This document shows, in pieces, positions 5,310 through 17,813 of a DNA stretch of 21,422 nt. The position numbers and the translations under genes are program-made. This DNA is from a virus. Location: IMG/VR virus record IMGVR_UViG_3300037847_005307, positions 1 through 21,422 of that record, one strand, 5' to 3'. Numbering within the stretch: the stretch's first letter is position 1; each line of letters opens with the position of its first letter. The notes beneath the pieces were generated by a model. The model was not told where the DNA came from. It worked only from the letters and a program-made list of their open reading frames with translations, and did not search any database.

Positions 5310-5316
5310 ATTATTA

Positions 5317-5574
5317 TTATCCTTTAGTTTTCGTATTAAGTTCGTATTTATTATAATAATAAACACTAGCTTTATAAATTTGTTTTTGTATTTCTCCTGG
5401 ACCGTATGTTTCAGGAGATAAATTTGGTTTTTCTCCTTTTTTATATGGGCCTAAGTTAATTCCAACTTTCCACGACTTTCCGTTTTCTACACATACAGGG
5501 AATATTCTTATGTTATGTTTTACACAATAATTCCATGCGTCATTTTCAAAGCGTGTTGAACTATATGTTCCCAT
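5317..5574 (-). CDS. Conserved phage hypothetical protein (GTYSSTRFENDAWNYC type)
   Basis: An 85-residue protein from the ATG at 5574, chosen because the conserved-looking part begins there (MGTYSSTRFENDAWNYC); an upstream ATG at 5619 would add 15 residues. The rest has a beta-like segment (IRIFPVCVENGKSWKVGI), a Pro/Gly linker and a Tyr-rich helix. I recall similar short proteins near replication genes of phages, function unknown. It lies between the primase-helicase and the thymidylate-synthase-like gene. Confidence 0.65.
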   Translation of the reverse strand: MGTYSSTRFENDAWNYCVKHNIRIFPVCVENGKSWKVGINLGPYKKGEKPNLSPETYGPGEIQKQIYKASVYYYNKYELNTKTKG

Positions 5575-5630: not shown

Positions 5631-7355
5631 CTACTCATTTTCCCAAGGTAATGGATTAATAATCTCTTCGTCTTCATTTATGTGTGGTATATATGAGCCG
5701 CTTTTAGGTTCCCAAGTAAAAAAACATTCAGCCCCATTTTCACCTAAGTTTTGAAATTTAACTTTTAATACTTTAACTTTTGTTGTTTTGTTTTCATAAT
5801 CTCTATGTACTAATAATCCGTGATAACTTGCATCATACCATTCACCTCCACCTTTAATATTATACATAGTTGGCTCTTCAATTTTACCAGAACTATCTTT
5901 ATACATTTTAGTAGGATGCGCTACTATAATTACTAATACATCATAGCGTTTTGCAAACTGCTCTATTTTTGTTAAATATTCTAAAGTATAAGTATTTACA
6001 TCCATGCTATTAGCATTCGTATCTCTTATTTTATTGAAAGGGTCTATTACTAAACATTTAATTCCTTTACGCTTTACAAGCTCTGCACCTTTACGTAATA
6101 CAGCTTCAAGTGATGGAACTTCTAAGTCTATGAAATAATAATTATTGTTTATATGGTTTGATATTTCTTGCCATCTTTCAGTACCAATATCATTATGCGA
6201 GGGCATACCGCCCCATATTTTACGCATTATTTTATGTGCATGTAAATAAGTTGGTGCATTTTCAGGTGAAGCAAAACCTATTTTCCAATCATACCCTATA
6301 TTATAACCAATTACCATTTGATCAACGAAATCACTTTTACCGCTACTAGGTATACCAGTAACAGTAATAAACTGACCAGTGTAAGTGCTGAAGATATTAT
6401 CAAAGTTATTAATGCCAATCTGAAATCCCGGCTTAAAACCGTTTTTAACAAAGTCTTGTAAATCATCTTCTAAATCTTTAAATGTTGTTACATTTTCTAA
6501 AGGTACAGGTAAAGCTTTTTCAATAATTGATTTAAGCTTTTCAGGGCTTTCTAATAATACATCATTAGCATCTTTATGTTCTTCATAATCAACAGTATAA
6601 CAAACCTCAGAGCCTAATCTTCTTATTAATTCTTGTTTCAAAGCTATACCAGCTGCATCATTATCAACAGCTATTATAATTTTTTCTTTATCAGCAAAGT
6701 AATCTATACAATTATCTAAGTAATCTAAATTGTTTGTGTTTAGTGTAGCACCGTTCGGAACTGATATTACATTAGAAATACCGGCTTCGTGTATAGCACA
6801 TACATCCATTTCGCCTTCAACTATAATACAAGAGTTGTAACCTATAATACTATTAATATTATAAAATATTTTTTCTGCGCCTTTATAAAGCTTAAAGTTT
6901 TTTCTTGCATCTCTATATTTAATATTGATAAGCTGATCACCTATCATATAATTAAACTTAATAGTATTTTCTTCTTTACCGGTTTGAGGCATGTATTCTG
7001 GCCCTTCTGATATATTTAAATCTTCAACTGTTTTTTTAGATATACCTCTTGATTCAAACCATTTAAGCACTTTGCTTTGTACCGGTTTGTGTGTTGTTGT
7101 GTCGTAAGTTGGTCTTTTGTATTCTATATCAGAACCACCTTTTCTTTGGTAAGTATGTAGTTGAAATGTTTTACTACAGTTGTGGCATGTGCCTAAACCT
7201 CTTTCCCAGTCTAAACTTGCACATTTCTTTTTTTTGTTTTCTGGCTTGCGCTGGTGAGAGCAGAGAGGACAAACACTCTCCGCTTTACCAACTTGTAGAT
7301 TATACTGGTTAAATTTATCTACATAAAAACCATTAACCTCTACCGTATTGAACAT
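5631..7355 (-). CDS. DNA primase-helicase (T7 gp4-like)
   Basis: A 574-residue fused primase and replicative helicase. Residues 29-60 carry a zinc ribbon (CPLC, CHNC) that reads primer start sites. A TOPRIM domain follows (VEGEMD 179-184, catalytic Glu180; DND 231-233). The C-terminal RecA-fold helicase of DnaB/T7 gp4 type has Walker A GIPSSGKS (334-341), Walker B CLVIDP (434-439) and a sensor His480 in IIVAHP. The length is near T7 gp4 (566). It would unwind the fork as a hexamer and lay primers. The start follows a copy of the recurrent phage promoter about 50 bases upstream. No DNA polymerase gene is visible in the window. Confidence 0.93.
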   Translation of the reverse strand: MFNTVEVNGFYVDKFNQYNLQVGKAESVCPLCSHQRKPENKKKKCASLDWERGLGTCHNCSKTFQLHTYQRKGGSDIEYKRPTYDTTTHKPVQSKVLKWFESRGISKKTVEDLNISEGPEYMPQTGKEENTIKFNYMIGDQLINIKYRDARKNFKLYKGAEKIFYNINSIIGYNSCIIVEGEMDVCAIHEAGISNVISVPNGATLNTNNLDYLDNCIDYFADKEKIIIAVDNDAAGIALKQELIRRLGSEVCYTVDYEEHKDANDVLLESPEKLKSIIEKALPVPLENVTTFKDLEDDLQDFVKNGFKPGFQIGINNFDNIFSTYTGQFITVTGIPSSGKSDFVDQMVIGYNIGYDWKIGFASPENAPTYLHAHKIMRKIWGGMPSHNDIGTERWQEISNHINNNYYFIDLEVPSLEAVLRKGAELVKRKGIKCLVIDPFNKIRDTNANSMDVNTYTLEYLTKIEQFAKRYDVLVIIVAHPTKMYKDSSGKIEEPTMYNIKGGGEWYDASYHGLLVHRDYENKTTKVKVLKVKFQNLGENGAECFFTWEPKSGSYIPHINEDEEIINPLPWENE

Positions 7356-7402: not shown

Positions 7403-7432
7403 TTATATCATAGCTGCTTCGTGCTGATTTCG
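7403..7432 (-). promoter_or_regulatory. Recurrent phage promoter element, copy before primase-helicase
   Basis: Read on the minus strand: AGCACG, 9 bases, TGATATAA. It differs from the best copies in the GACACG box (AGCACG) but keeps the exact spacing. It lies in the 79-base gap between the SSB-like gene and the primase-helicase start at 7355. See the other copies at 8921, 11221, 12441, 13046, 13827, 14213, 14387 and 14837. Confidence 0.55.
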
Positions 7433-7434
7433 TA

Positions 7435-7755
7435 TTAGAACGGAAGATCATCATCTGTTGGTGCAGCAGCTGCCTGTGTTGCAGGCGCGGATTGAGGTTG
7501 TCCCTGCTGTTGTGCAGGAGGCATAGCCTCACCGTCCGTCCATACGACTTTTATATTTCCTAAATAAACTTTAGGTTCTTTAGCGTCGCGCTCTTCTTTT
7601 GATTGATCTACGGTAACTGAACCGTTATGACCAAACTGATCCATTTCGTTATTGATTGCAATAACAACTGGAATGTATTTACCCTTTTTACCATTATAGA
7701 TTTTATCCTTTGGTATCTTGGTAACATCTAGGTTTCCTTTTAAAATTCCTGCCAT
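7435..7755 (-). CDS. Single-stranded DNA-binding-like protein
   Basis: A 106-residue protein with a beta-rich first part (residues 1-75), a flexible Gln/Pro/Ala linker (79-100) and an acidic tail ending DDDLPF. This mirrors bacterial SSB, whose acidic tail ending in Pro-Phe recruits replication and repair partners. The OB fold itself is not obvious from sequence, so it may be a divergent phage SSB. Position between the exonuclease and the primase-helicase supports coating of single-stranded DNA in replication and recombination. It starts one base after the exonuclease stop. Confidence 0.7.
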   Translation of the reverse strand: MAGILKGNLDVTKIPKDKIYNGKKGKYIPVVIAINNEMDQFGHNGSVTVDQSKEERDAKEPKVYLGNIKVVWTDGEAMPPAQQQGQPQSAPATQAAAAPTDDDLPF

Positions 7756-7756
7756 A

Positions 7757-8488
7757 TTATAATGTTTTGGTTATAAAATATTGGTTAGGGTCAAAATTTT
7801 CTGTTTCATAAAACAATTTATATATTTCTGAAGCTTCCTTTACTTTGCGTTGACCCGACTCGTAAAATTCAGTTGAGCATTCAAAAATACCTGTCTTTAA
7901 TGTATTCTTATCAATTACTAAAAATATAAATTCGTAACCGAACATCGAGGAATATATATATGCTTGACTGTCATAATTATATTTTTTACATCTCGATTTG
8001 AATAAATTAATATCGCTCGTTGTTTTTAAATCAACAATAAGCTTATCATCGTGGTTTACAATATCAGCCTTGCATTTCCACCATAAATCCTCTAGCTGCA
8101 TAATATTAGGAACTTCATATTCAATATTCATTCCCGCTATTAATTCGCCAAAGTATTTATTCTTTTCTATTTTTTCTACCATTCCTTCAATCTTATCTAC
8201 TTCATGTTGAAGTAAACATATTTCACCCTCAGATAGTTCTTTATATTTTTTTGTATTTCGCGTACTAGACTCTATTATTTTAAAGTTTTTTAATTTATTA
8301 GGTTCAAGTATAGCTGTGTGAACATATCTACCAATCACAAAATTTATATGATTAGGTGTGGGATCTTTCAGTTTAGTAGGATCAGTTTGTAAAATAGAAA
8401 TATGTGAGTTACTTAAAAACTCACGACCTATACCGTTATAGTATTGGTCGTCGTCTTCAAGCATTTTAAGAATTTTTTTTCTTTGCAT
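7757..8488 (-). CDS. PD-(D/E)XK exonuclease (RecE/Cas4-like)
   Basis: A 243-residue protein with motifs of the phage exonuclease branch of the PD-(D/E)XK superfamily: GRYVHTAILEP (53-63, His57), Asp142 in KADIVNHDD, DLK at 153-155 (Asp, Lys catalytic) and YDSQAYIY (172-179), the RecB-motif Tyr/Gln. Such enzymes chew one DNA strand to expose tails for a single-strand annealing protein. The gene upstream, overlapping by one base, is the candidate annealing partner, and an SSB-like gene follows. Together they look like a phage recombination module. Confidence 0.82.
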   Translation of the reverse strand: MQRKKILKMLEDDDQYYNGIGREFLSNSHISILQTDPTKLKDPTPNHINFVIGRYVHTAILEPNKLKNFKIIESSTRNTKKYKELSEGEICLLQHEVDKIEGMVEKIEKNKYFGELIAGMNIEYEVPNIMQLEDLWWKCKADIVNHDDKLIVDLKTTSDINLFKSRCKKYNYDSQAYIYSSMFGYEFIFLVIDKNTLKTGIFECSTEFYESGQRKVKEASEIYKLFYETENFDPNQYFITKTL

Positions 8489-8901
8489 TATAGTGTCATT
8501 TTAACATGATCTTCTGTTATTTGCTTTGGTCTTTTAAAGTCTTCTGACTCGTCTTCACCAAATGCACCTAACGCATAAAATCCTGTTAATTTAAGAGTAA
8601 TTCTTGACATTGCTCTTTTTTCTGCCATTGCAAGAACATAACTTTGTCTACAATTCTTTTCATTGGCTTCACCATAAGTTTCTAATTTTCTATTATTCCA
8701 TTCAGCACTTGCTTTTACCGCAGCTGAAACACCCGGAGTATATTCAATACAATCATATGTAATATCTATATCCGCTTGAGCTTGTATTTTATCAATACCT
8801 GCTCTTGTTATTATAGTCCAACCTTGTGGACTTCTAAAAGTATCTTCTTTATCAAGACCATACTTTTTATAAAGGTTATTTAATAATTCTGATTTAGTCA
8901 T
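8488..8901 (-). CDS. Putative single-strand annealing/recombination protein
   Basis: A 137-residue protein. The pattern GWTIITRAGIDKIQAQADI, then a beta region with ETYGEA, then a helix AMAEKRAMSRITLKLTG, recalls the Rad52/Sak-like and RecT-like recombinases, where an Ala/Arg-rich helix follows the beta sheet. It is short for this group and I cannot assign a family firmly. The partner gene is a PD-(D/E)XK exonuclease, the usual companion of annealing proteins. A phage promoter copy lies directly upstream (8921-8950), so this gene heads the recombination and replication transcript. Confidence 0.55.
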   Translation of the reverse strand: MTKSELLNNLYKKYGLDKEDTFRSPQGWTIITRAGIDKIQAQADIDITYDCIEYTPGVSAAVKASAEWNNRKLETYGEANEKNCRQSYVLAMAEKRAMSRITLKLTGFYALGAFGEDESEDFKRPKQITEDHVKMTL

Positions 8902-8920
8902 CTGTAAAACTCTTTGGTTT

Positions 8921-8950
8921 TTATATCAATACTTACTCGTGTCCGGCTCG
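8921..8950 (-). promoter_or_regulatory. Recurrent phage promoter element, copy before recombination module
   Basis: Read on the minus strand: GCCGGACACG, 9 bases, TGATATAA. It fills the 51-base gap between the sigma factor stop (8953) and the annealing-protein start (8901), leaving a short leader of about 10-15 bases. One of the clearest copies. Confidence 0.75.
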
Positions 8951-8952
8951 GG

Positions 8953-9714
8953 CTACCCTAAGTAATCTACTACTTGTTCAGGCTCTACGTTTTTTATAAG
9001 CTTGTCTATTCCGTCTTTTTTTATTTGTGATACTCTTACGTATGACGCTGAACCTTTTATATCCAGCTTTTCTGATATTTCTTTTGCGCTCAGTTTGTCG
9101 CAGTCCAGCCCATAACTCATTCGCAATACGTTGTATTCTAAATCCGTTAAATGCATTCTCATCAGCCCCATTAAATATTGGTTTAAAATATTTATGTTGT
9201 ATGTGGTTGAGCTGTCTGGAATTTGTAATAATATGTTTGCGTCTGTTGAAGTGTTTACGTCTAAGCTTACAAATATACTGTCGAAGAAAACTTTTACCAT
9301 TTCTTTGTTGCTGCTGTTCTTTCTGATTTCGTTTAGCCTGTGTTCTGGTATGCGCATACTCCCCCTGTTGATGTCTATAGCCCTCCTTATCGAGCCCTTT
9401 ATTCTTTTTTTTAAGAACCCTTTTACCATAAGCGGTTCTTCTCCCGGTTTCGCAGTCCCATAAACTTTGTCCCAATCTATTCTGTCTACGGCGTTTATCA
9501 AACCTATTGTACCTTCCTGTATTAGATCTAATATCGACATCACTCCCGATGCTTGATACGTCAGTACAAACTTCCATGCTACCGCTTCTACTAGTGGTCT
9601 TGCGCATAGTATTAAATCTTCTCGCGATGTTTCTGAATTGCAACATTCCTCAAATAGCTTTTCTGTTAACTCTTCTTTGTAACGTATGTAATTTTGTATG
9701 CTGTAATGTTTCAT
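8953..9714 (-). CDS. Phage sigma-70-family RNA polymerase sigma factor
   Basis: A 253-residue sigma factor. Region 2 is visible as SILDLIQEGTIGLINAVDRID (about 60-80), matching the core-binding DLIQEG motif of group 1/2 sigmas, followed by KGSIRRAI and RGSMRIPEHRLNEIRK, like the RAI...IRIP stretch of regions 2.4-3. Region 4 is at the end: LTDLEYNVLRMSYGL, then a helix-turn-helix (LSAKEISEKL...YVRVSQIKK) to read a -35 box. It would redirect host RNA polymerase to phage promoters, and the repeated element before minus-strand genes is the natural candidate target. Its first 65 bases overlap the preceding gene. No promoter copy precedes it; it is probably read from upstream. Confidence 0.88.
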   Translation of the reverse strand: MKHYSIQNYIRYKEELTEKLFEECCNSETSREDLILCARPLVEAVAWKFVLTYQASGVMSILDLIQEGTIGLINAVDRIDWDKVYGTAKPGEEPLMVKGFLKKRIKGSIRRAIDINRGSMRIPEHRLNEIRKNSSNKEMVKVFFDSIFVSLDVNTSTDANILLQIPDSSTTYNINILNQYLMGLMRMHLTDLEYNVLRMSYGLDCDKLSAKEISEKLDIKGSASYVRVSQIKKDGIDKLIKNVEPEQVVDYLG

Positions 9715-10324
9715 CGTTCAGTTCGCGCTTCTCATTTTTTAAAGACTCGCTCATATTTCTGAAGATAGTACGTGTAGTTACTTGTAGTTGAGTAGCTAAA
9801 GACTTAACGGTAATTTTTTTACCGACGTCATGCATGTATAGCATTGCTTCGTATATATCACTCTCGCTTGCTTGTTTCTTTCGGCCTAATACTTTTCCAA
9901 CAAGCTTAAGCTTTTCAATTCTATTTAAACCACATCCTTCTTTAAATACAATTTTTCTTAATTTATTTTTAGGTGGTTTATCTAAATCTTGAGACCATAC
10001 GTCGTCAACTATTGTTACTAACCTGTTCTCTTCTATTACGAATGTAACAAAACCATTTGATTTGTCCGTTATGTGCTTTCCTAATTTTAAAAACATGCTT
10101 TTGGTTATGTGATCATTTAAATACAGTAATACAAGCAAATGCCATTTTAAAGATTTATACGTTGTAATCTTTGCTTTACTTCTAAACAGTTCATAACATT
10201 CGTGTGTACCTTTATTATATAGTTTATAATAATTTGTTTCCTCATCTGGTTTATCAGATATTGGATCACGCCTGTAAACTATTCTGTTTTTTAGTAAGAA
10301 CTCAAACTTTCGTTCGTGCGACAT
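9650..10324 (-). CDS. Helix-turn-helix DNA-binding protein
   Basis: A 224-residue protein. Residues about 155-195 contain a helix-turn-helix (KKITVKSLATQLQVTTRTIFRNMSES) like those of transcription or replication regulators; the first 120 residues are basic and mixed alpha/beta, without a recognised domain. It could regulate the adjacent sigma gene or act at a phage origin. The end overlaps the sigma factor start by 65 bases, unusually long, so its last 20 residues may be unconstrained. No promoter is recognisable just upstream. Confidence 0.65.
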   Translation of the reverse strand: MSHERKFEFLLKNRIVYRRDPISDKPDEETNYYKLYNKGTHECYELFRSKAKITTYKSLKWHLLVLLYLNDHITKSMFLKLGKHITDKSNGFVTFVIEENRLVTIVDDVWSQDLDKPPKNKLRKIVFKEGCGLNRIEKLKLVGKVLGRKKQASESDIYEAMLYMHDVGKKITVKSLATQLQVTTRTIFRNMSESLKNEKRELNDETLQHTKLHTLQRRVNRKAI

Positions 10325-10358
10325 TAGCCTGTTACTATATTAATTATTGTACCTATTG

Positions 10359-10592
10359 TCACGTTACAAGAACCCTGTAATAACGCTGATACTTTCTCAT
10401 AAACCACAATTTATGTTTGATTTCATCAATTATTTCATTCGCGTCAGCATTAGGATGCTTATCGATATTAAATGTTATACGGCTAATTTCATCATGCAGT
10501 TCCCATACGCGAGAGCCCACATAAGCCCTGTGCTTCGCCTTCCTTTTATTAAAAAGCAAAGCAACAGGTGAGGGTGTAAAGTTAATCTTCAT
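10359..10592 (-). CDS. Small basic hypothetical protein
   Basis: A 77-residue protein with a Lys/Arg-rich first third (LLFNKRKAKHRAYVGSR) and a helical remainder ending in RKYQRYYRVLVT. No family recognised. It overlaps the end of the upstream acidic gene by 11 bases; 34 bases separate it from the helix-turn-helix gene. Confidence 0.6.
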   Translation of the reverse strand: MKINFTPSPVALLFNKRKAKHRAYVGSRVWELHDEISRITFNIDKHPNADANEIIDEIKHKLWFMRKYQRYYRVLVT

Positions 10593-11025
10593 TTACTTCA
10601 ATATTACTTAAATTTAATTTAGCATTCTTTTCCTCGTCAGCACGAGAGTCTGCACAAGCATAATCCCATACCTCACGGCATATGTCTTCGGCTGTACCGC
10701 CATTGTGTAATTCCTCGGCAAACCAAGTGTATACAACTACGTCGTTACCGCCTCTTATATCCTCTTCTAACTCGTCCCATAAATCAGTAGCATCATTAGT
10801 CATGTTACCGATATAAGTACACTTAGAAGTGTCTCTCGTAGTATAATGTAAGAGAGTACCATCCATTGTTTCTTCAGATATATATATACACCAGTTTTTA
10901 TATTTACCATTGTATATATCATCTTCAACAATAACCTCTGCGCCAAAGTATTCCTTTACCGCCTTCACATGGTCTTCCGGTTGAGGAAGCTTGTGGATTG
11001 GATAATCGTGTTTAGTATAACTCAT
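10582..11025 (-). CDS. Acidic hypothetical phage protein
   Basis: A 147-residue, strongly acidic protein with several Trp/Tyr pairs (NWCIYISEE, VVVYTWFAEELHNGG). The fold is probably alpha/beta. No family recognised. It overlaps the 59-residue gene upstream by four bases (ATGA), so they should be translationally coupled from the promoter at 11221-11250. Acidic early proteins of phages sometimes mimic DNA or inhibit host enzymes; nothing here proves that. Confidence 0.65.
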   Translation of the reverse strand: MSYTKHDYPIHKLPQPEDHVKAVKEYFGAEVIVEDDIYNGKYKNWCIYISEETMDGTLLHYTTRDTSKCTYIGNMTNDATDLWDELEEDIRGGNDVVVYTWFAEELHNGGTAEDICREVWDYACADSRADEEKNAKLNLSNIEVNED

Positions 11026-11201
11026 AACTCTATTTCAGCTTTAAGTGCATCAGTCTCGTTAATGTAACTTAATACATACTTAGCGCAATGGTTCTTTTGG
11101 AACAAATCGAGCTCGTCAAACTTCTTATCGAAGTGTTTTTCAGCTACTATATTAAGTAGCGCATCTGTAAGCGTAGTGCTTAAATTTTTATCTTTTTTCA
11201 T
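11022..11201 (-). CDS. Small hypothetical protein
   Basis: A 59-residue protein (MKKDKNLSTTLTDALLNIV...) that is charged and probably all-helical. The start is clear: it lies about 20 bases downstream of a strong copy of the recurrent promoter, and the stop overlaps the next ATG as ATGA. No family recognised. Confidence 0.65.
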   Translation of the reverse strand: MKKDKNLSTTLTDALLNIVAEKHFDKKFDELDLFQKNHCAKYVLSYINETDALKAEIEL

Positions 11202-11220
11202 ATATAAACTTATTTGCCTA

Positions 11221-11250
11221 TTATATCATTTGGCATTCGTGTCAGGTCCG
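11221..11250 (-). promoter_or_regulatory. Recurrent phage promoter element, near-consensus copy
   Basis: Read on the minus strand: CGGACC, TGACACG, 9 bases, TGATATAAT. The -10-like part holds a perfect TATAAT. It sits in the 73-base gap between the zinc-ribbon gene stop (11275) and the start at 11201. Confidence 0.8.
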
Positions 11251-11274
11251 TTAGCAGTCTATTGTCATGCGACG

Positions 11275-11445
11275 TTAGGCGCGTGGTCTACCACCTTGTC
11301 CTAAATAGTGAAGTGATATACGAGCAGGAATTACAACAGTGACATTGCAAGCAGTACAACATCTCCCCGTCATTACGAGAGGGTCGGGGTTATGTCCTTC
11401 CCCATCATATTGTCCGCCACAAAGGCAACATGTTTTATTTTCCAT
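11275..11445 (-). CDS. Small zinc-ribbon protein
   Basis: A 56-residue protein with two cysteine knuckles, TCCLCGG (residues 5-11) and RCCTACN (28-34), spaced as in a treble-clef or zinc-ribbon fold, and a basic tail. I recall similar tiny proteins in phages. Likely binds one zinc; partner unknown. Starts 11 bases inside the preceding gene. Confidence 0.65.
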   Translation of the reverse strand: MENKTCCLCGGQYDGEGHNPDPLVMTGRCCTACNVTVVIPARISLHYLGQGGRPRA

Positions 11446-11740
11446 ACTTATCTCTTAAATAATGTTCGTATATAGTTTTGCTAATCTGTACTAGTGAAGT
11501 GTAGATTACTGCACGAATATACTTATTTTGGTGGAATTTATCAAGTAAATCTCGTTTTTCGTTAATAAGTGTAGTTTCGTCTTGATGTATTTGTGTATGA
11601 ATAAAATCTACTAATTCATATATAGTCATAGAATAACCAGCACGCTCTTCTCTAAAATATTCATCTTTAAAGAAACGAGCGGTTATGTTATCTATTTCAT
11701 CTAATTCGTCACGCGAAAACCCAAAGTCTTCTGCTTTCAT
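11435..11740 (-). CDS. Hypothetical helical protein
   Basis: A 101-residue charged protein (MKAEDFGFSRDELDEIDNI...) predicted mostly helical, rich in Glu/Asp and aromatic residues. No domain recognised. Overlaps the upstream gene by four bases and the zinc-ribbon gene by 11, consistent with an operon started at the 12441 promoter. Confidence 0.62.
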   Translation of the reverse strand: MKAEDFGFSRDELDEIDNITARFFKDEYFREERAGYSMTIYELVDFIHTQIHQDETTLINEKRDLLDKFHQNKYIRAVIYTSLVQISKTIYEHYLRDKYGK

Positions 11741-12021
11741 ATATTGTCATTCGTATTATCAAGTCTTGGCACCAACCTATTATAAGTTAATCCTTCATTA
11801 TCTGTACCAACATTATGTTCTACAGTATAGTTGTTTTTTAAAAATTTACTATAGCTGTCATAAGTTTCATTCCATAAATCTTCACCTAACTCCTCTTTAA
11901 ACTCTAATATATACTTATTGGTTTTAGTTAACCCTCCATAACAATAACACGACTCCATCATGCTTTTAAAAGAACTGATGGGGTCACTTGCATAAAAATC
12001 TACTAAATCTTTATTTTCCAT
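11737..12021 (-). CDS. Hypothetical acidic protein
   Basis: A 94-residue protein (MENKDLVDFYASDPISSF...) with a Cys-x-Cys pair (CYCYGG) and a helical centre (LEFKEELGEDLWNETYDSY). No family recognised. Its ATG shares a base with the KTSC gene's stop (TAATG), so translation is probably coupled. Confidence 0.62.
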   Translation of the reverse strand: MENKDLVDFYASDPISSFKSMMESCYCYGGLTKTNKYILEFKEELGEDLWNETYDSYSKFLKNNYTVEHNVGTDNEGLTYNRLVPRLDNTNDNI

Positions 12022-12260
12022 TATATTACTTTTAGTGTTTGCTTTGTGTAGCTGTATTTATTTTTTATATTCCTGTTATAAAACTTTCCTATCGAGTAGC
12101 TATTACGCAACCGTTGAAACGTACGCACATGCACTTTCCAATATGAATACATAGTACCATTTTGAAACAATACTAGTAGTATTCTTTTCTCTCGGTCATA
12201 CGAGATTTGTTTTATTGCTTTACTATCTATTAGTAAAACTTCTTTACTTACTTTTCTCAT
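12021..12260 (-). CDS. KTSC domain protein
   Basis: A 79-residue protein. The pattern ...DSKAIKQISYDREKRILLVLFQNGTMYSYWKV...SIGKFYNRNIK matches the KTSC domain, a short beta-rich module common in phages and bacteria and thought from family context to bind nucleic acid; function not established. The usual KTSC C-terminus is kept except that this copy reads IGKFYN. The start at 12260 is chosen because the longer frame to 12320 would translate the tRNA gene. Its ATG is only two bases beyond the tRNA 3' end, so the mRNA must be made by processing of a common transcript. Confidence 0.75.
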   Translation of the reverse strand: MRKVSKEVLLIDSKAIKQISYDREKRILLVLFQNGTMYSYWKVHVRTFQRLRNSYSIGKFYNRNIKNKYSYTKQTLKVI

Positions 12261-12262
12261 AG

Positions 12263-12334
12263 TTGCGACGGGCGGACTCGAACCGCCGACCTCTGGGTTA
12301 TGAGCCCAGCAAGATACCACTTCTCCACGTCGCT
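12263..12334 (-). tRNA. tRNA-Met (CAT) with initiator (fMet) features
   Basis: A cloverleaf folds by eye. The acceptor stem is 6 bp with an A1-A72 mismatch at the end. The D stem is GAGA/TCTT with the A11-U24 pair. The anticodon stem is CTGGG/CCCAG around loop CTCATAA (anticodon CAU), and the T stem is GGCGG/CCGCC around TTCGAGT. The unpaired 1-72 position, the three consecutive G-C pairs in the anticodon stem (GGG/CCC) and the purine-11/pyrimidine-24 pair are the known marks of bacterial initiator tRNA. CCA is not fully encoded (the bases after A73 are C, T, A). It lies downstream of the promoter at 12441 and just before the KTSC gene. Confidence 0.9.
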
Positions 12335-12343
12335 ATATTGTTA

Positions 12344-12413
12344 GAGTAACAGGGCGAATCAGGCATTACCTTTTTATATCGCCGTTCTGCTTCACGCCGC
12401 CTACCAGTTACTC
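12344..12413 (-). ncRNA. Candidate structured RNA, tRNA-sized, next to the tRNA
   Basis: A perfect 7-bp outer stem (GAGTAAC with GTTACTC) encloses 56 bases, giving a 70-base element, the size of a tRNA, ending nine bases before the tRNA 5' end. Inside, on the minus strand, GGCGA pairs with TCGCC around a small AGGT/GCCT hairpin. I could not fit D, anticodon and T arms, so it is not a normal tRNA. It may be a decayed tRNA, a processing signal or a small regulatory RNA. No open frame explains this gap. Confidence 0.4.
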
Positions 12414-12440
12414 ATCATAAACAACAACCTAATTAACAAT

Positions 12441-12472
12441 TATAATATCATTCGTCTTCCGTGTCGGGTTCG
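12441..12472 (-). promoter_or_regulatory. Recurrent phage promoter element, copy before the tRNA operon
   Basis: Read on the minus strand: CCCGACACG, 9 bases, TGATATTATA. It overlaps the last eight codons of the 77-residue gene (which ends PDTEDE) and drives toward the structured RNA, the tRNA and the KTSC gene. Confidence 0.72.
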
Positions 12473-12681
12473 TTTGCGTAATGACTGACCTTAAACTTAA
12501 AGGCTAAGTCGTCAGCAATTGAGTGTATAGCACTTTCAACCGCGCTCGTTACTATGTCGTTTATTCTACCGTCAATCCCTCCTTCGGGATGCCACCATTG
12601 TGCTTCATAATTTTCAAGTGAGTCAACAACCTTTGCCATTGCCTCTTTTATATCCATTTCTATTAAATCTCTATCCATCAC
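12448..12681 (-). CDS. Small acidic hypothetical protein
   Basis: A 77-residue acidic protein (MMDRDLIEMDIKEAMAKVV...) probably helical, with no recognised family. Starts 11 bases inside the upstream gene. Its 3' end doubles as a promoter: the codons for Pro-Asp-Thr contain the GACACG box. Confidence 0.6.
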   Translation of the reverse strand: MMDRDLIEMDIKEAMAKVVDSLENYEAQWWHPEGGIDGRINDIVTSAVESAIHSIADDLAFKFKVSHYANEPDTEDE

Positions 12682-13039
12682 TCGTTAGATTTAATTCATT
12701 CTTTATTTGTCCTTCTATATCACTTTCATACAATGCGCCTTCTAAAGCCCATATAGCCGCCTGCATTTCACTATTAGCTCTTATGCCATGCATTGGGTCA
12801 TCTGCCCATATATCATAGTTAAGTTTCTTTAAAATTTCTTTACAGTCATATGAATATATACATGCATTCTCTATATAAGCATTTATGTGGTCACCAATAT
12901 GCCATTCTTCAAACTGATAATCATCACTCATCAGTTCCCATTTTATATCGGTAACTACTGTATCAATACAGTCTTTTCTATAATCGTGAGCGGTTTGTTC
13001 TGCTTCAGTAAGCCACTCATACTTTTTTGTTTTTTCCAT
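12671..13039 (-). CDS. Conserved phage hypothetical protein
   Basis: A 122-residue acidic, Trp- and Tyr-rich protein. The segment GDHINAYIENACIYSYDCKEI and the helical stretch SEMQAAIWALEGALYES feel familiar from small early phage proteins, but I cannot name a domain. The start at 13039 lies a few bases downstream of a promoter copy (13046-13072), so this gene heads its own transcript. Confidence 0.62.
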   Translation of the reverse strand: MEKTKKYEWLTEAEQTAHDYRKDCIDTVVTDIKWELMSDDYQFEEWHIGDHINAYIENACIYSYDCKEILKKLNYDIWADDPMHGIRANSEMQAAIWALEGALYESDIEGQIKNELNLTSDG

Positions 13040-13045
13040 ATTATT

Positions 13046-13072
13046 AATATCATTACTGACTCGTGTCAGCTT
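13046..13072 (-). promoter_or_regulatory. Recurrent phage promoter element
   Basis: Read on the minus strand: CTGACACG, 9 bases, TGATATTAA. It overlaps the last five codons of the 59-residue gene (ending ADTSQ) and sits within ten bases of the next ATG (13039), so the transcript may be almost leaderless. Confidence 0.72.
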
Positions 13073-13232
13073 TGTTGTTTAAATATTCCTTTACTTTCAT
13101 TATCCCAAACTCAGTTAGGTAATGCTTTAATACCTCTTCTTTTTCCTCATCTGTAAGTGAGTGAAATCCAAACTCAGCAAACATCTCGTCACTGAGTCTG
13201 TTTAATTCTGCTAAATTTTTATACTTGCTCAT
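13053..13232 (-). CDS. Small hypothetical protein
   Basis: A 59-residue protein (MSKYKNLAELNRLSDEMFAE...) of charged helices, ending NNKADTSQ. No family recognised. Its start overlaps the end of the 71-residue gene by 14 bases and its 3' end contains a promoter copy, the same layout as two other small genes here. Confidence 0.6.
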   Translation of the reverse strand: MSKYKNLAELNRLSDEMFAEFGFHSLTDEEKEEVLKHYLTEFGIMKVKEYLNNKADTSQ

Positions 13233-13434
13233 ATTCTTTTATTACAGGTATGTCATAATAATTTGCTACATAATTTATATGTCTTTGAGTCGTTACCGAC
13301 CACCAACCGTGTTGATGTAATTCGTATTGCAACTTATCACTGTTATAAACTAAAGTTGCTACGTGTGTACTATAAGACCAAATTGCATCTCCAACCTGTC
13401 TTAAATTCTTTTTATGTCTATCAAATGTTTTCAC
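13219..13434 (-). CDS. Small phage protein (STHVA...TTQRHINYVA type)
   Basis: A 71-residue protein. The sequence WSYSTHVATLVY..., then HGWWSVTTQRHINYVANYY, resembles a small conserved phage family that I recall by this Thr-x-x-His-Ile-Asn pattern; function unknown. The fold is probably alpha/beta. It overlaps both neighbours (14 bases each). Confidence 0.62.
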   Translation of the reverse strand: MKTFDRHKKNLRQVGDAIWSYSTHVATLVYNSDKLQYELHQHGWWSVTTQRHINYVANYYDIPVIKEYEQV

Positions 13435-13615
13435 TGTTTAGTATTTTATTTATAGCTTTTATTGAATTATATATGTGATTATCTAGGTATTCCTTATCGT
13501 ACCCGCTATGAAGTGCTTCCTCATAGTGCTTAGTCTCGTCGTCGATTAGATAGTCCACCAGTTTTTCAGCGTGGAATGCTAAGTCCTCTATCTCTTTTCT
13601 GTCGTATGTTCTCAT
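13421..13615 (-). CDS. Small helical hypothetical protein
   Basis: A 64-residue acidic helical protein (MRTYDRKEIEDLAFHAEKLV...). No domain recognised. It is followed after 14 bases of overlap by the next gene and preceded at one base by the stop of the 63-residue gene. Confidence 0.58.
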   Translation of the reverse strand: MRTYDRKEIEDLAFHAEKLVDYLIDDETKHYEEALHSGYDKEYLDNHIYNSIKAINKILNSENI

Positions 13616-13616
13616 A

Positions 13617-13808
13617 TTAATGAATTATTGGTAGTTCATCATGGACCATAAACTCACAGTCTTTTATACGGTGACCCGCATTTTCTATTGCTTTTGTAAG
13701 TTCTTCGGTTTTCATTTCCCAAGTATTTATAGGATATGTCATAACTTCGCCACTACTAAAGTCTAATACTGTTACGTATTTTTCAAATTCGCCTCTTTGT
13801 GTTATCAT
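13617..13808 (-). CDS. Small hypothetical phage protein
   Basis: A 63-residue protein with a beta-like start (YVTVLDFSSGEVMTYPI) and a helix ending in a His-rich tail. I have seen similar mini-proteins in phages but cannot name them. A promoter copy lies 19 bases upstream of the start. Confidence 0.6.
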   Translation of the reverse strand: MITQRGEFEKYVTVLDFSSGEVMTYPINTWEMKTEELTKAIENAGHRIKDCEFMVHDELPIIH

Positions 13809-13826
13809 AATTATTCATTTTATATT

Positions 13827-13856
13827 TATATCAATATATTATCGTATCGGGTTCGG
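13827..13856 (-). promoter_or_regulatory. Recurrent phage promoter element
   Basis: Read on the minus strand: CCGATACG, 9 bases, TGATATAAA. One base of the GACACG box differs (GATACG). It overlaps the last codons of the zinc-ribbon gene (ending EPDTIIY). Confidence 0.68.
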
Positions 13857-13977
13857 TCTGTTCCTCGCCACAGTTTGGACATATTTCTCCACATATATCA
13901 TCACTCACAATTGATGTTAGTGTATGATGTCCACAATTCCAACACTCGCCGGATATTTTATTTTGATACCATTCCAT
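13831..13977 (-). CDS. Very small zinc-ribbon protein
   Basis: A 48-residue protein with two CxxC knuckles, CWNC (12-15) and CPNC (33-36), plus Cys29, His17 and His18 between them: a minimal zinc ribbon. It starts two bases before the stop of the next upstream gene and ends in EPDTIIY, where the codons also form a promoter. Acidic overall, so a protein rather than DNA partner is possible. Confidence 0.65.
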   Translation of the reverse strand: MEWYQNKISGECWNCGHHTLTSIVSDDICGEICPNCGEEQTEPDTIIY

Positions 13978-13979
13978 AT

Positions 13980-14186
13980 TTAGTAATTTAAAATTCTATC
14001 AATACATTCTACAGTTTGGTTTCTTAACCATTCTTGTCCAGTTTCATCTAGGTCATCAAACCCATCTACATCCCATAAATGACTTGCCATATCATTTAAG
14101 AGTATAGTAATAGACTTTTCTACACGTCTATTTACATTTATAGTCTCTTGGGCAGTTACATACCCTCTTGTTATTACCTTTTTCAT
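13980..14186 (-). CDS. Small hypothetical protein
   Basis: A 68-residue protein with a basic start (MKKVITRGYVTAQETI) and an acidic, helical second half (WDVDGFDDLDETGQEWL). No family recognised. Promoter copy 14213-14241 lies about 30 bases upstream. Confidence 0.6.
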   Translation of the reverse strand: MKKVITRGYVTAQETINVNRRVEKSITILLNDMASHLWDVDGFDDLDETGQEWLRNQTVECIDRILNY

Positions 14187-14212
14187 TTTATTATTATTTT
14201 AAGTTCACATAT

Positions 14213-14241
14213 TATATCATTGGTAATTCGTGTTTACCCCG
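14213..14241 (-). promoter_or_regulatory. Recurrent phage promoter element
   Basis: Read on the minus strand: CGGGGTAAACACG, 9 bases, TGATATAAT. The box reads AACACG; the -10-like part holds a perfect TATAAT. Directs the gene starting at 14186. Confidence 0.72.
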
Positions 14242-14261
14242 TTGTAAAGTGGGTGAAATGT

Positions 14262-14336
14262 TTATGTGTAGAAAATTAGTTTAGTGGTATTACTCGATTC
14301 TTCTCTTTGTGTGAAGAAACGTAAAAAATGTGACAT
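14262..14336 (-). CDS. Possible 24-residue peptide
   Basis: A short frame (MSHFLRFFTQREESSNTTKL...) is the only one in the transcript that would start from the promoter at 14387-14416. It covers a TTCTTC/GAAGAA hairpin, so the transcript might instead be a small RNA. Evidence is positional only. Confidence 0.25.
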   Translation of the reverse strand: MSHFLRFFTQREESSNTTKLIFYT

Positions 14337-14375
14337 TAGGTAGTATAATATAATTAATAACACCCTACTGTCGCG
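14330..14375 (+). repeat. Duplicated fragment of the 68-residue gene's 3' end
   Basis: Bases 14330-14345 (GTGACATTAGGTAGTA) are identical to 15262-15277, and 14365-14375 matches 15298-15308 at 10 of 11 positions, at nearly the same distance. The second copy is the 3' end of the gene at 15091; here only a few codons (VTLGS) remain before a stop. So this looks like the relic of a duplicated gene end. Confidence 0.55.
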
Positions 14376-14386
14376 CTTTTTCTTAT

Positions 14387-14416
14387 TATATCAGTACAGT
14401 TTAGTGTCAGGTCCGG
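14387..14416 (-). promoter_or_regulatory. Recurrent phage promoter element with no clear gene downstream
   Basis: Read on the minus strand: CGGACCTGACACT, 9 bases, TGATATAAT. The box and -10 are near-consensus, yet the next 170 bases hold only a possible 24-residue frame. Confidence 0.7.
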
Positions 14417-14541
14417 GCTTCCGCGTAGGTTTACGGAATAGAACAGTGCAGTACGGAGCGGGCACGTGCTATACATGCTATACACGCCTGCCCTTTCCCT
14501 GCGCTAGGTACTCGGGTTATCAGGCGCTAACTAACATGAAC
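14417..14541. other. GC-rich intergenic stretch with inverted repeats
   Basis: No gene is seen. It holds a TTCCG/CGGAA stem (about 14419-14438) and a longer hairpin, GGGCA-GTG pairing with CAC-TGCCC (14460-14496), with the direct repeat GCTATACA in the loop. On the plus strand GGGCACG, 9 bases, TGCTATACA is a weak resemblance to the recurrent promoter. The base composition is clearly richer in GC than the genes around it. Confidence 0.4.
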
Positions 14542-14811
14542 TTATATATATGCTTTCATTTCTCTTACAAACTTCGGTAGGTTGAAGCTCTGCGTATATA
14601 TTTTTCTTTTCTTAAAGCATGGCATGCTGTCAAATCTTTCTTGATGTGCATGGTACACTTTATCGTGGTCGTAGTCACATACTTTACCATCGTAATTTGT
14701 ATACTTGATGATTAAGCCTTGACCTACTAACTTTTTTCTTATTACAAACCTGTTAGATACTATGCTTCTCTTAGGTTCTTTTTTACTATTTACTTTTTTT
14801 ACTTTTGTCAT
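14542..14811 (-). CDS. Basic hypothetical protein
   Basis: An 89-residue Lys-rich protein (MTKVKKVNSKKEPKRSIVSN...) with central Tyr/Asp/His residues and a helical tail. It is the first gene of the leftward block, just downstream of promoter copy 14837-14868, so it may be among the earliest expressed. Its basicity suggests nucleic-acid binding. No family recognised. Confidence 0.62.
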   Translation of the reverse strand: MTKVKKVNSKKEPKRSIVSNRFVIRKKLVGQGLIIKYTNYDGKVCDYDHDKVYHAHQERFDSMPCFKKRKIYTQSFNLPKFVREMKAYI

Positions 14812-14836
14812 TATATTATTATTTAAAGTTCACATA

Positions 14837-14868
14837 TAATATCATAATAGTACCGTGTTACGTCCGTA
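14837..14868 (-). promoter_or_regulatory. Recurrent phage promoter element, first leftward copy
   Basis: Read on the minus strand: GTAACACG, 9 bases, TGATATTATA. Starts the leftward block (gene at 14811). It faces away from the plus-strand copy at 14880-14911, forming a divergent pair. Confidence 0.7.
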
Positions 14869-14879
14869 CTCGGCGGTAT

Positions 14880-14911
14880 GCGGGGCGGGCACGGGCGGTG
14901 GGCGATATAAT
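14880..14911 (+). promoter_or_regulatory. Rightward copy of the recurrent phage promoter element
   Basis: On the plus strand: GGGCACG, 9 bases, CGATATAAT, the same boxes and exactly the same spacing as the leftward copies, in inverted orientation. It would start transcription toward the late genes (first start 15091). Confidence 0.6.
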
Positions 14912-15090: not shown

Positions 15091-15297
15091 ATGAAAAAGA
15101 TTAGGTATGTGAAATACAGAAATCAATACCTAACAGAAGAAGAGATCTTTACGTGGGTCGGAGAGAGACAGCAAGAGCTGCTGGACCTATCGCCGAAAGC
15201 GAAGATGTACTTTGAAGATTGTCTTGGGCAATTTGTTAGGATTGATGGAAAACACTATACCGTGACATTAGGTAGTAAGGAAATATTTAATAAGTAG
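15091..15297 (+). CDS. Hypothetical protein, first gene of rightward block
   Basis: A 68-residue protein (MKKIRYVKYRNQYLTEEEIF...) with a basic start, helical middle and a short beta end (VRIDGKHYTVTLGS). No family recognised. Part of its 3' end is repeated at 14330. Codon choice is somewhat richer in G/C than in the neighbouring AT-rich genes. Confidence 0.65.
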   Translation: MKKIRYVKYRNQYLTEEEIFTWVGERQQELLDLSPKAKMYFEDCLGQFVRIDGKHYTVTLGSKEIFNK

Positions 15298-15304
15298 CTA
15301 TTGT

Positions 15305-15323
15305 CGCGTAATATATAAAGCAT
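15305..15323 (+). promoter_or_regulatory. Short repeated element CGCGTAATATATAAAGCAT
   Basis: A 19-base intergenic motif that recurs at 15629-15647 with 15 of 19 bases identical. Both copies lie in gaps between plus-strand genes; the TATAAA-like core suggests a late promoter or RNA-processing site. The copy here ends in the ATG of a 39-residue frame. Confidence 0.35.
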
Positions 15324-15985: not shown

Positions 15986-17572
15986 ATGGAATTCAATAAC
16001 CCAAGTGAGATAGTAAAGGATTTGACCTTTGGCGATCATGCCAGAGATAGAATCATGCAAGGTGTAGAAAAATTATCCAAAGCGGTAGCTTCTACACTTG
16101 GTGCTTCAGGAAAGTGTGTAATATACGAAGATTCTATGGGTAACCCAATAATAACAAAAGATGGTGTTACAGTTGCAGAATCAGTAATATTAATTAACCC
16201 GGTGGAAAATTTGGGGGCAACACTAATAAAAGAAGCAGCTAAAAAAACAGTCAGAGAAGCGGGAGACGGCACCACCACCGCAACCGTCCTCGCACACTCT
16301 CTGCTCCAGGAAATGAACCAAGCCAAAGGATATACCGTGAGAGAAATCAAAGATGCTACAAACATTGTCCTGGAAAAAATATTAAAACAGCTAGATAAAA
16401 ATAGCATACAAATAAAGGATGACATGCTAGAAGATGTCGCCTCCATATCTTGTAACAATGACGTTGAGCTCGGCTTGATTATAGCTGACGCTTATAAATC
16501 CGTCGGAGCCAACGGAGTTGTTTTAATGGAGGAATCAGACACGGAAGAAACATTCAGCGAAATAGTAGACGGGGTGCAATTCGATTGTGGCATAAAATCT
16601 CAGCATCTGGTAACGGACACTGAAAAGAATAAAGCTATACTCGAGAACCCCTACGTCCTTATTGTTGCTTCGCAAATACCTAGTATTAGAAAAATACAGA
16701 ATGTACTTGAACATGTTATTAGAGAAAAGCGCAGTCTTTTAATTGTAGCCGGTATGGATCAGCAACCAATGGCTGCACTGTTAATGAACAAAGTAAAAGG
16801 AAACATTAAAGTAAACATTATTGATACACCTGGTTTTGGGGCTACCAAAATGGATACAATGCAAGATTTAGCCACAATAACCGGAGCGAAAGTTATCAAT
16901 GAAGAATTGGGAGATGATTTAGATTTAATCAATCCTGATGTTTTAGGTCAAGCAGAAAAAGCAGTAACCGATGCAACCTCAACGGTAATTACTATAAATA
17001 AAATGCCGGATGAAGCAAAAGAAAGAATAGACCTAGTAAATAAAAAAATTAAAACGGAAAAAAATCCGTTTATAAAATCTAAACTCGAACAAAGACTAGC
17101 CATGTTATCTGGTGCTGTAGCGATACTAAAAGTTGGCGCAAATAGTAAAATTGAGTTAAAAGAAAAGAAAGATAGAGTTGAAGATGCTATCTATGCAGTT
17201 AAAGCTGCAATTAAAGAAGGTATAGTTCCAGGCGGTGGAGTTGCTTTATTAGATGCAAGTCAAAAAGTAAAAATTGATAATGATGCTGAACTAATACTAT
17301 TAAAAGCAGTTGAAGCACCTTATAGCACAATATTAAAAAATGCCGGAATAGATCATAATACAATAAATCCTATAGACTTTAATGACACACGTAAAAAAGG
17401 ACACGGTGTTAATGTTATAACAGGAAAAGAAGTAAATATGATAAAAGCTGGTATTATAGATCCGGTAATGGTGACTAAGAAAGCATTGGTAAATGCAGTT
17501 AGTGTGGCTACAACAATTATATCTGCTGATTGTATAATTTCAAATATTAGAGATTATGAAGGCAATCAATAA
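15986..17572 (+). CDS. groEL: Phage GroEL chaperonin
   Basis: A 528-residue group I chaperonin (E. coli 548). The catalytic aspartates of the ATPase are present: Asp59 in TKDGVTVA (E. coli Asp52), Asp94 in GDGTTT (Asp87) and Asp400 in VEDA (Asp398), with the hinge GGG at 416-418 and apical TPGFGATKMDTM. The Tyr-Tyr-Phe that line the E. coli substrate groove (199, 203, 204) are replaced by Ile203, His207 and Leu208, and the C-terminal GGM tail is missing. So it should form an ATP-driven folding ring, perhaps for phage capsid proteins, with altered substrate or cap preference. An A/T leader (ATTAAATTAAATTAAATG) without Shine-Dalgarno precedes it. The first third is richer in C/G codons than the rest. 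Confidence 0.96.
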   Translation: MEFNNPSEIVKDLTFGDHARDRIMQGVEKLSKAVASTLGASGKCVIYEDSMGNPIITKDGVTVAESVILINPVENLGATLIKEAAKKTVREAGDGTTTATVLAHSLLQEMNQAKGYTVREIKDATNIVLEKILKQLDKNSIQIKDDMLEDVASISCNNDVELGLIIADAYKSVGANGVVLMEESDTEETFSEIVDGVQFDCGIKSQHLVTDTEKNKAILENPYVLIVASQIPSIRKIQNVLEHVIREKRSLLIVAGMDQQPMAALLMNKVKGNIKVNIIDTPGFGATKMDTMQDLATITGAKVINEELGDDLDLINPDVLGQAEKAVTDATSTVITINKMPDEAKERIDLVNKKIKTEKNPFIKSKLEQRLAMLSGAVAILKVGANSKIELKEKKDRVEDAIYAVKAAIKEGIVPGGGVALLDASQKVKIDNDAELILLKAVEAPYSTILKNAGIDHNTINPIDFNDTRKKGHGVNVITGKEVNMIKAGIIDPVMVTKKALVNAVSVATTIISADCIISNIRDYEGNQ

Positions 17573-17813
17573 CTTTATTATAATAGAACCTATTAAAGAA
17601 GAACCTAAAAAAGAAGAAGGTTTACTTATAATGGATCAACACGTAGATGACGTTAGGTACTTAAAAGCTAAAATTATATCTGTAGGCAATATGACGGAAG
17701 GAGTTAAAATTAATGATATAATTTATTACGATAGAAGAGCCGGTCACGGAATAGAATACGACAATAACTTATACCAAGTTATAAGACAACAAGATGTTGT
17801 ATTAGTCGGTTAA
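17556..17813 (+). CDS. groES: Phage GroES co-chaperonin
   Basis: An 85-residue co-chaperonin (E. coli 97). It keeps the family layout: N-terminal beta strand (NFIIIEPI), a mobile loop (KKEEGLLIMD; hydrophobic LLI in place of the usual IVL that docks on GroEL), AKIISVGN, VKINDIIYYDRRAG and the final VLV. The roof hairpin region is shortened. It overlaps groEL by 17 bases, the reverse of the usual groES-groEL order in bacteria, so it was assembled or rearranged independently of the host operon. The pair is probably a matched phage folding machine. Confidence 0.88.
   Translation: MKAINNFIIIEPIKEEPKKEEGLLIMDQHVDDVRYLKAKIISVGNMTEGVKINDIIYYDRRAGHGIEYDNNLYQVIRQQDVVLVG

Follow-up and report, generated by a model that had tools for sequence, protein, structure and literature searches.

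The 21,422-nucleotide (nt) stretch analysed here, hereafter the window, comprises bases 1-21422 of a 23.5-kb linear virus fragment (IMG/VR record IMGVR_UViG_3300037847_005307) and carries on its minus strand ten copies of a repeated element that is very probably a class of promoter. Judged from sequence comparison, the ten elements are likely to form one class, serving the leftward arm of the genome and read by the host core RNA polymerase together with a sigma factor encoded by the phage. The genes that the class would drive include those for replication, recombination and nucleotide metabolism, a tRNA-Met and small genes. In the mechanism that we propose, the host core polymerase would carry the phage sigma to the elements, where regions 2.4 and 3.0 of the protein would recognise a -10 box, GATAWT, and region 4 a -35 box, ACRRAC, across a rigid spacer of 18 base pairs (bp). 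A third block within this spacer, AA[T/C]ACGA, would provide additional recognition, by the sigma itself or by a co-inherited helix-turn-helix (HTH) protein, and transcription would begin at a purine exactly 7 nt past the -10 box, which in some cases starts an ATG. Computation establishes the element with its spacing, strand and location, its start-site signature and its occurrence together with the sigma gene; that the sigma reads it, what each block does and when the genes are expressed is what we infer.

An initial annotation of the window had described ten copies of an intergenic element, GACACG-N9-TGATATWAW, nine on the minus strand and one on the plus strand at 14880. Allowing up to three mismatches, this pattern matched the window 14 times, compared to a mean of 3.55 and a maximum of 9 in 100 shuffles; four of the minus-strand matches were exact and four more carried a single mismatch. 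All nine minus-strand copies were present within 1-2 nt of the places given, with the 9-nt gap exact in each. We scanned the window with a position weight matrix (PWM) made from three close relatives alone (G001-G003, with 95-98% sigma protein identity; G004-G007 have 55-56%) and hence independent of the window. It returned exactly ten minus-strand sites, scoring from 25 to 41; the next best minus-strand position scored 2.1, and the top scores from 200 dinucleotide shuffles averaged 3.0 and did not go beyond 17.9. The tenth site, previously overlooked, lies at 5316-5345 (ACGAACTTAATACG-N9-GGATAATAA) before the thymidylate synthase gene and is conserved in G001, G002 and G003. The plus-strand copy was dropped: its score of 15.6 fell inside the shuffle range, its upstream ACRRAC block is missing, and GATATA, GATATT and GATAAT were not found on the plus strand of the G002 region matching 14880. 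The sites are also only partly intergenic: those at 5316, 12444, 13046 and 13827 run into the 3' end of the gene before them, and the element can include that gene's stop codon. All ten accepted sites are oriented with transcription in the arm of the sigma gene, and the late arm contains none. A search for TGACACG-N9-TGATATWAT across all viral contigs gave 23 single matches, approximately the number estimated for chance, and was not used.

A sigma profile search of viral contigs yielded 285 relatives, the best 80 of which were used. Motif counts were made on a panel of 85 relatives (1.28 Mb) chosen solely for encoding the phage sigma, and family statistics on starts refer to 369 distinct sites. 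Close relatives had the window's motif at matching places with the sequence of the 9-nt gap changed, and distant relatives had the variant ACAAAYTAAATACG-N9-AGATAATAT. Motif discovery on the upstream regions of relatives, with no motif supplied, returned the gapped motif TTACAAACTAAATACGA-N8-NGATAATA at many loci and, in L032, the form seen in the window. The family alignment displayed three blocks, in the order TTACAAA, A-A-T/C-ACGA and GATAATA. From this alignment and the start-site register, the -35 box ACRRAC (ACAAAC in the family, ACGRRC in the window's clade) was assigned to -36 to -31 and the -10 box GATAWT to -12 to -7, with an 18-bp spacer that includes the third block, AA[T/C]ACGA, at -28 to -22. 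Each phage has its own typical base at -13. When the upstream and -10 blocks were scored independently at offsets from -8 to +8, all joint matches (330/330) fell at zero, as did 266 of 273 for the -35 half and the -10 block.

This anatomy revises the initial one. The CGGACC-like bases half-seen upstream of the element are borne out, the conserved sequence indeed reaching further upstream (ACGRRCC). GACACG and TATAAT had been taken for a short -35/-10 pair; the 12-bp distance between them is real, but GACACG overlaps the spacer element and is a poorer candidate for the -35 box than ACRRAC. An extended -10 reading with this 12-bp spacing was dropped in favour of GATAWT at -12 to -7, as indicated by the family alignment and the purine at +1. 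The upstream block may also be read as an 11-bp direct repeat, ACRAA-N6-ACGAA, to which we give little weight because one relative, L135 (CGAAA), breaks its phase. Two other relatives, L119 and L037, have largely lost ACGA and kept ACAAA and GATAATA, and both retain the HTH gene; the spacer element is, by this comparison, separable from the two boxes.

The direction of the element, its place before start codons, the purine at +1 and the coincidence of ATG with +1 lead us to regard it as a promoter. In the panel, 417 sites lay on the strand of the sigma gene and 4 on the other, with none in the Markov null, and on the long contigs of two distant relatives, G006 and G007, the sites were found in the arm around the sigma gene and on its strand, and outside the late arm, bar one low-scoring match. 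The base 7 nt after the -10 box, which is outside the PWM, was a purine at 367 of the 369 sites (G at 191, A at 176) and at 34 of 34 in the window's clade, compared to 62% at the same offset after GATAAT elsewhere. The A of an ATG fell exactly on this base at 38 sites (10%, or 47 sites counting any ATG) versus 0.2% of random positions, and very few start codons were nearer. A start codon was located 7-40 nt after -7 at 71% of the sites versus 9% of random positions. Messages from sites with ATG at +1 are predicted to be leaderless; in the window, 5309 (thymidylate synthase) and 13039 are such starts. Motif discovery on the late arm of six relatives gave no convincing late promoter.

The sigma protein contains regions 2, 3.0 and 4. 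Its region 2.4 (FLKKRIKGSIRRAI) is FliA-like, without the tryptophan pair (WW dyad) of primary sigmas, and its region 3.0 (RIPEH) resembles that of primary sigmas. In profile alignment, the part from region 2 to region 3.0 matched both FliA and primary sigmas, and region 4 matched primary sigmas; FliA (1sc5/1rp3) and primary sigmas scored equally in structure comparisons of the model (predicted local distance difference test, pLDDT, 78). Every locus with more than 3.7 kb upstream of the sigma gene carries sites. In the reverse test, 32 of 50 contigs picked by the motif alone encode the sigma, including 19 of 19 of at least 58 kb; the remainder are smaller contigs, possibly fragmentary. Cellulophaga phage phi10:1 and Flavobacterium phage elemoA have a related primase; the stretches of them that were read (33 and 40 kb) contained neither such a sigma nor any site above 4.8. 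Element and sigma appear linked by this co-occurrence, which is confounded by shared descent. The dedicated sigma-promoter system suggested initially is supported in part, as regards a directional, promoter-like element that accompanies the sigma gene; its plus-strand copy has been dropped and its -35/-10 anatomy revised. One motif-bearing contig (G039:C1:55767-56520) has a sigma gene split by a frame change with internal stops, which may reflect an assembly error or a decayed gene.

The host of the phage is likely to be a member of the Bacteroidota, as suggested by the scarcity of Shine-Dalgarno sequences (1 of 32 genes in the window record), a trait of this phylum (PMC6847099), by the primase, whose nearest matches are in Cellulophaga and Flavobacterium phages, and by a gene content that parallels Flavobacterium phage elemoA (GroEL/GroES, tRNA-Met and an early/late split by strand). 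Matches to the sigma in a genome collection, on Aliivibrio and Halieaceae metagenome-assembled genome (MAG) contigs and one remote Bacilli MAG, were not used as host evidence.

The HTH gene lies just upstream of the sigma gene, which it overlaps or closely adjoins, and its product of 224 residues bears a C-terminal helix-turn-helix. It was present in 81 of 86 scanned loci and on 32 of 32 sigma-bearing contigs selected by the motif, as well as on one contig ending beside it. Among the five loci without it, three have the sigma gene at the contig end, L141 encodes a very distant sigma, and the fifth, L135 (a 28.9-kb contig), is the sole near relative seemingly devoid of the gene; it keeps GATAATATA, with a -35 block CGAAA and some spacer elements altered. 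The HTH model (pLDDT 90) gave only weak, generic helix-turn-helix matches in a PDB fold search (best Z 5.6) and one strong match among predicted viral structures, the unnamed protein A0A516MIB4; no homologue was detected by tblastn among named phages. The protein may be the reader of the spacer element.

Expression of the HTH-sigma operon itself seems to be controlled separately. The nearest site upstream of it is 314 nt away in any relative, with a median of 1857. Where a sigma site might be expected, most relatives have inverted-repeat arms, TGACAAYAGC ... GGCTAATGTC, separated by 37-40 nt and lying on either side of the HTH start codon. This repeat, at 10319-10361 in the window, is a probable separate control point of the operon and may be an operator, or an RNA hairpin hiding the start codon. 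As there is no nearby sigma site and a different inverted repeat occupies this place, the operon would probably be expressed first by some other route, with read-through from 11215 adding to it later. In the window the repeat (TGACAWTAG...CTAATGTC) occurs again at 14331-14373 and 15263-15306, around the early/late junction.

Several points weigh against the proposed reading by the sigma. Motif, sigma and HTH gene are co-inherited in one lineage, and co-occurrence cannot assign a block to a protein. We found no single sigma residue changing with the base at -13 or -34; associations between sigma residues and motif bases showed nothing beyond shared ancestry. An upstream block of 15 bp is more than region 4 of a sigma would normally explain by itself, and part of it may belong to another protein. 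Finally, the spacer element is degenerate in L119 and L037, phages that have both proteins. An alternative, in which reading would resemble that by T4 MotA, lambda CII or PhoB, holds that the HTH protein binds the spacer element (or the 11-bp repeat, -36 to -21) and the sigma mainly the -10 box, both being needed. We regard it as a real, if tentative, possibility: the two genes overlap or lie close and are co-inherited, the length of the upstream block exceeds what a single region 4 commonly reads, and L135, without the HTH gene, has a changed -35 block and partly altered spacer elements. Against it, L135 is the only such case and its contig is incomplete, ACGA is largely gone from L119 and L037 although both encode the HTH protein and preserve ACAAA and GATAATA, and no solved structure matches the HTH model with confidence. 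A stricter form, in which the promoters are read by an obligate unit of the FliA-like sigma and an HTH protein of unrecognised fold, appears less likely than not. In it the HTH protein would bind AA[T/C]ACGA between the two sigma boxes, making three-box promoters that tolerate no change of spacing, and would also control its own operon through the start-codon inverted repeat.

That these are host-type promoters read by the housekeeping sigma, with the phage sigma acting elsewhere, is very improbable. The -10 box does resemble a sigma-70 box, and the Bacteroidota traits noted above (Shine-Dalgarno scarcity, primase kinship) mean that the host sigma must act somewhere. But the Bacteroidota promoter is TTG/TAnnTTTG, and the element does not fit it: as the initial annotation had maintained in calling it unlike host-type promoters, neither of its boxes matches TTG-N17-21-TAnnTTTG. 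Moreover, the Flavobacteriia phages without the sigma do not show the element in the stretches that were read, and it accompanies the sigma in scores of contigs. Matches to the host promoter were few and scattered, with no concentration in the early arm. Operators for a repressor, partition or replication protein, as might be imagined for a long, strongly conserved sequence with many copies in the replication arm, can be practically discounted, since the element is not palindromic, is oriented 417 to 4 with transcription, and has the promoter properties of a +1 purine and of start codons at or past +1.

A sigma-driven class of the kind proposed here has precedents. Phage sigmas with their own promoters are established for phiEco32 (gp36) and 7-11 (gp47) (PMC8948821, PMC4331800), which likewise combine a phage sigma-family factor with its own promoter class. 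Their transcription starts at a set distance of 6-9 bp from the element, as is predicted for the window, and in 7-11 the promoters are bipartite (GTAAtg-16-aCTA). In these enterobacterial phages it is middle and/or late genes that depend on the sigma, whereas the window's class is confined to the replication arm of Bacteroidota-type phages and has other boxes and a conserved third block in the spacer. The window's sigma is not recognisably related to theirs, no such phage being among the search matches. The middle promoters of T4 (MotA/AsiA, PMC6755090) resemble the class by a -10 box with a conserved block near -30 to -25, by serving replication and nucleotide metabolism genes, and by a second phage protein, here a candidate reader. 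But T4 employs no new sigma for them and the MotA box replaces the -35 box, while the window has a sigma gene, a normally placed -35 box and an HTH model without a confident MotA-like match; contrary to a MotA-type promoter, the -35 box is conserved at its 18-bp distance, and L119 keeps it even though the spacer block is lost there. The FliA (sigma-28) promoter is TAAAGTTT-N11-GCCGATAA (PMC2859248). With it the class shares the -10 core GATAA alone. The region 2.4 of the sigma resembles that of FliA in sequence (KRIKGAI-type, no WW dyad), and FliA is among the closest solved structures, level with primary sigmas; the class differs by the lack of the GCC extension, by its ACRRAC -35 box and extra spacer block, and by the primary-like RIPEH of region 3.0. 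Lastly, TGATATAAT of the window's clade can be read as TGn + TATAAT, the extended -10 motif of sigma-70 (TGnTATAAT), but this is not general: the family shows GATAAT with the preceding base varying by phage, and the +1 purine fixes GATAWT.

No description of this promoter was found in the literature searched. The sigma family, the boxes, the rigidly spaced conserved spacer block, the co-inherited HTH protein and the scale of the system in uncultured phages are new. Sequence alone here defines a transcription programme for a large uncultured phage lineage, with no close relative among the named phages searched, and because the starts are predicted to the base they can be tested on existing metatranscriptomes. 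A three-block promoter with a linked sigma-HTH pair raises the question of what is readable between -35 and -10, and the sigma and its promoter could serve as an orthogonal expression tool for Bacteroidota.

Table 1. Predicted promoter elements of the leftward arm and features of the HTH-sigma operon in the window. Promoter coordinates span -36 to -7.
Feature	Position	Strand	Remarks
Promoter element	5316..5345	-	Predicted +1 5309, the A of the thymidylate synthase ATG (predicted leaderless); conserved in G001-G003
Promoter element	7404..7433	-	Predicted +1 7397 (G); before primase/helicase gene 5631-7355
Promoter element	8922..8951	-	Predicted +1 8915 (A); between sigma gene and 8488-8901 (then exonuclease, SSB-like)
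Promoter element	11222..11251	-	Predicted +1 11215 (A); first site upstream of the gene run into the HTH-sigma operon
Promoter element	12444..12473	-	Predicted +1 12437 (G); precedes a KTSC-domain gene and tRNA-Met 12262-12334
Promoter element	13046..13075	-	Predicted +1 13039, the A of the ATG of 12671-13039 (predicted leaderless)
Promoter element	13827..13856	-	Predicted +1 13820 (A); before 13617-13808
Promoter element	14213..14242	-	Predicted +1 14206 (G); before 13980-14186
Promoter element	14387..14416	-	Predicted +1 14380 (A); followed by a short hairpin region, then the next promoter
Promoter element	14838..14867	-	Predicted +1 14831 (G); before 14542-14811, with which the leftward arm opens
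Sigma-70-family factor, 253 amino acids	8953..9714	-	Regions 2, 3.0 and 4; proposed reader of the -10 and -35 boxes
HTH protein, 224 amino acids	9650..10324	-	Overlaps sigma gene start; possible reader of the spacer block
Inverted repeat TGACAATAGG-N-CAGGCTAATGTC	10319..10361	-	Overlaps HTH start codon

The hairpin after the 14380 start was not significant (z = -1.1). A 50-nt direct repeat, 88% identical between 14171-14220 and 14796-14845, takes in the -10 portion of a promoter together with the leader and start of a gene, and is a duplicated promoter-plus-start unit. An unlisted open reading frame for 48 amino acids at 13831-13977 (minus strand) encodes a zinc-ribbon-like product with CxxC pairs (MEWYQNKISGECWNCG...), and its TGA stop is inside the promoter element at 13827-13856. 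The tRNA-Met gene (minus strand) lies downstream of the promoter at 12444-12473; elemoA also carries a phage tRNA-Met. GroEL and GroES genes are located on the plus strand at 15986-17813, near the start of the late arm, and GroEL was found in 15 relatives and in elemoA. In the relative G002 (62.6 kb), the two ends (L044 1-150 and the end of L047) are almost identical in sequence and share one promoter site, at positions 45 and 62482, and this contig, though classed as linear, is probably complete with terminal redundancy.

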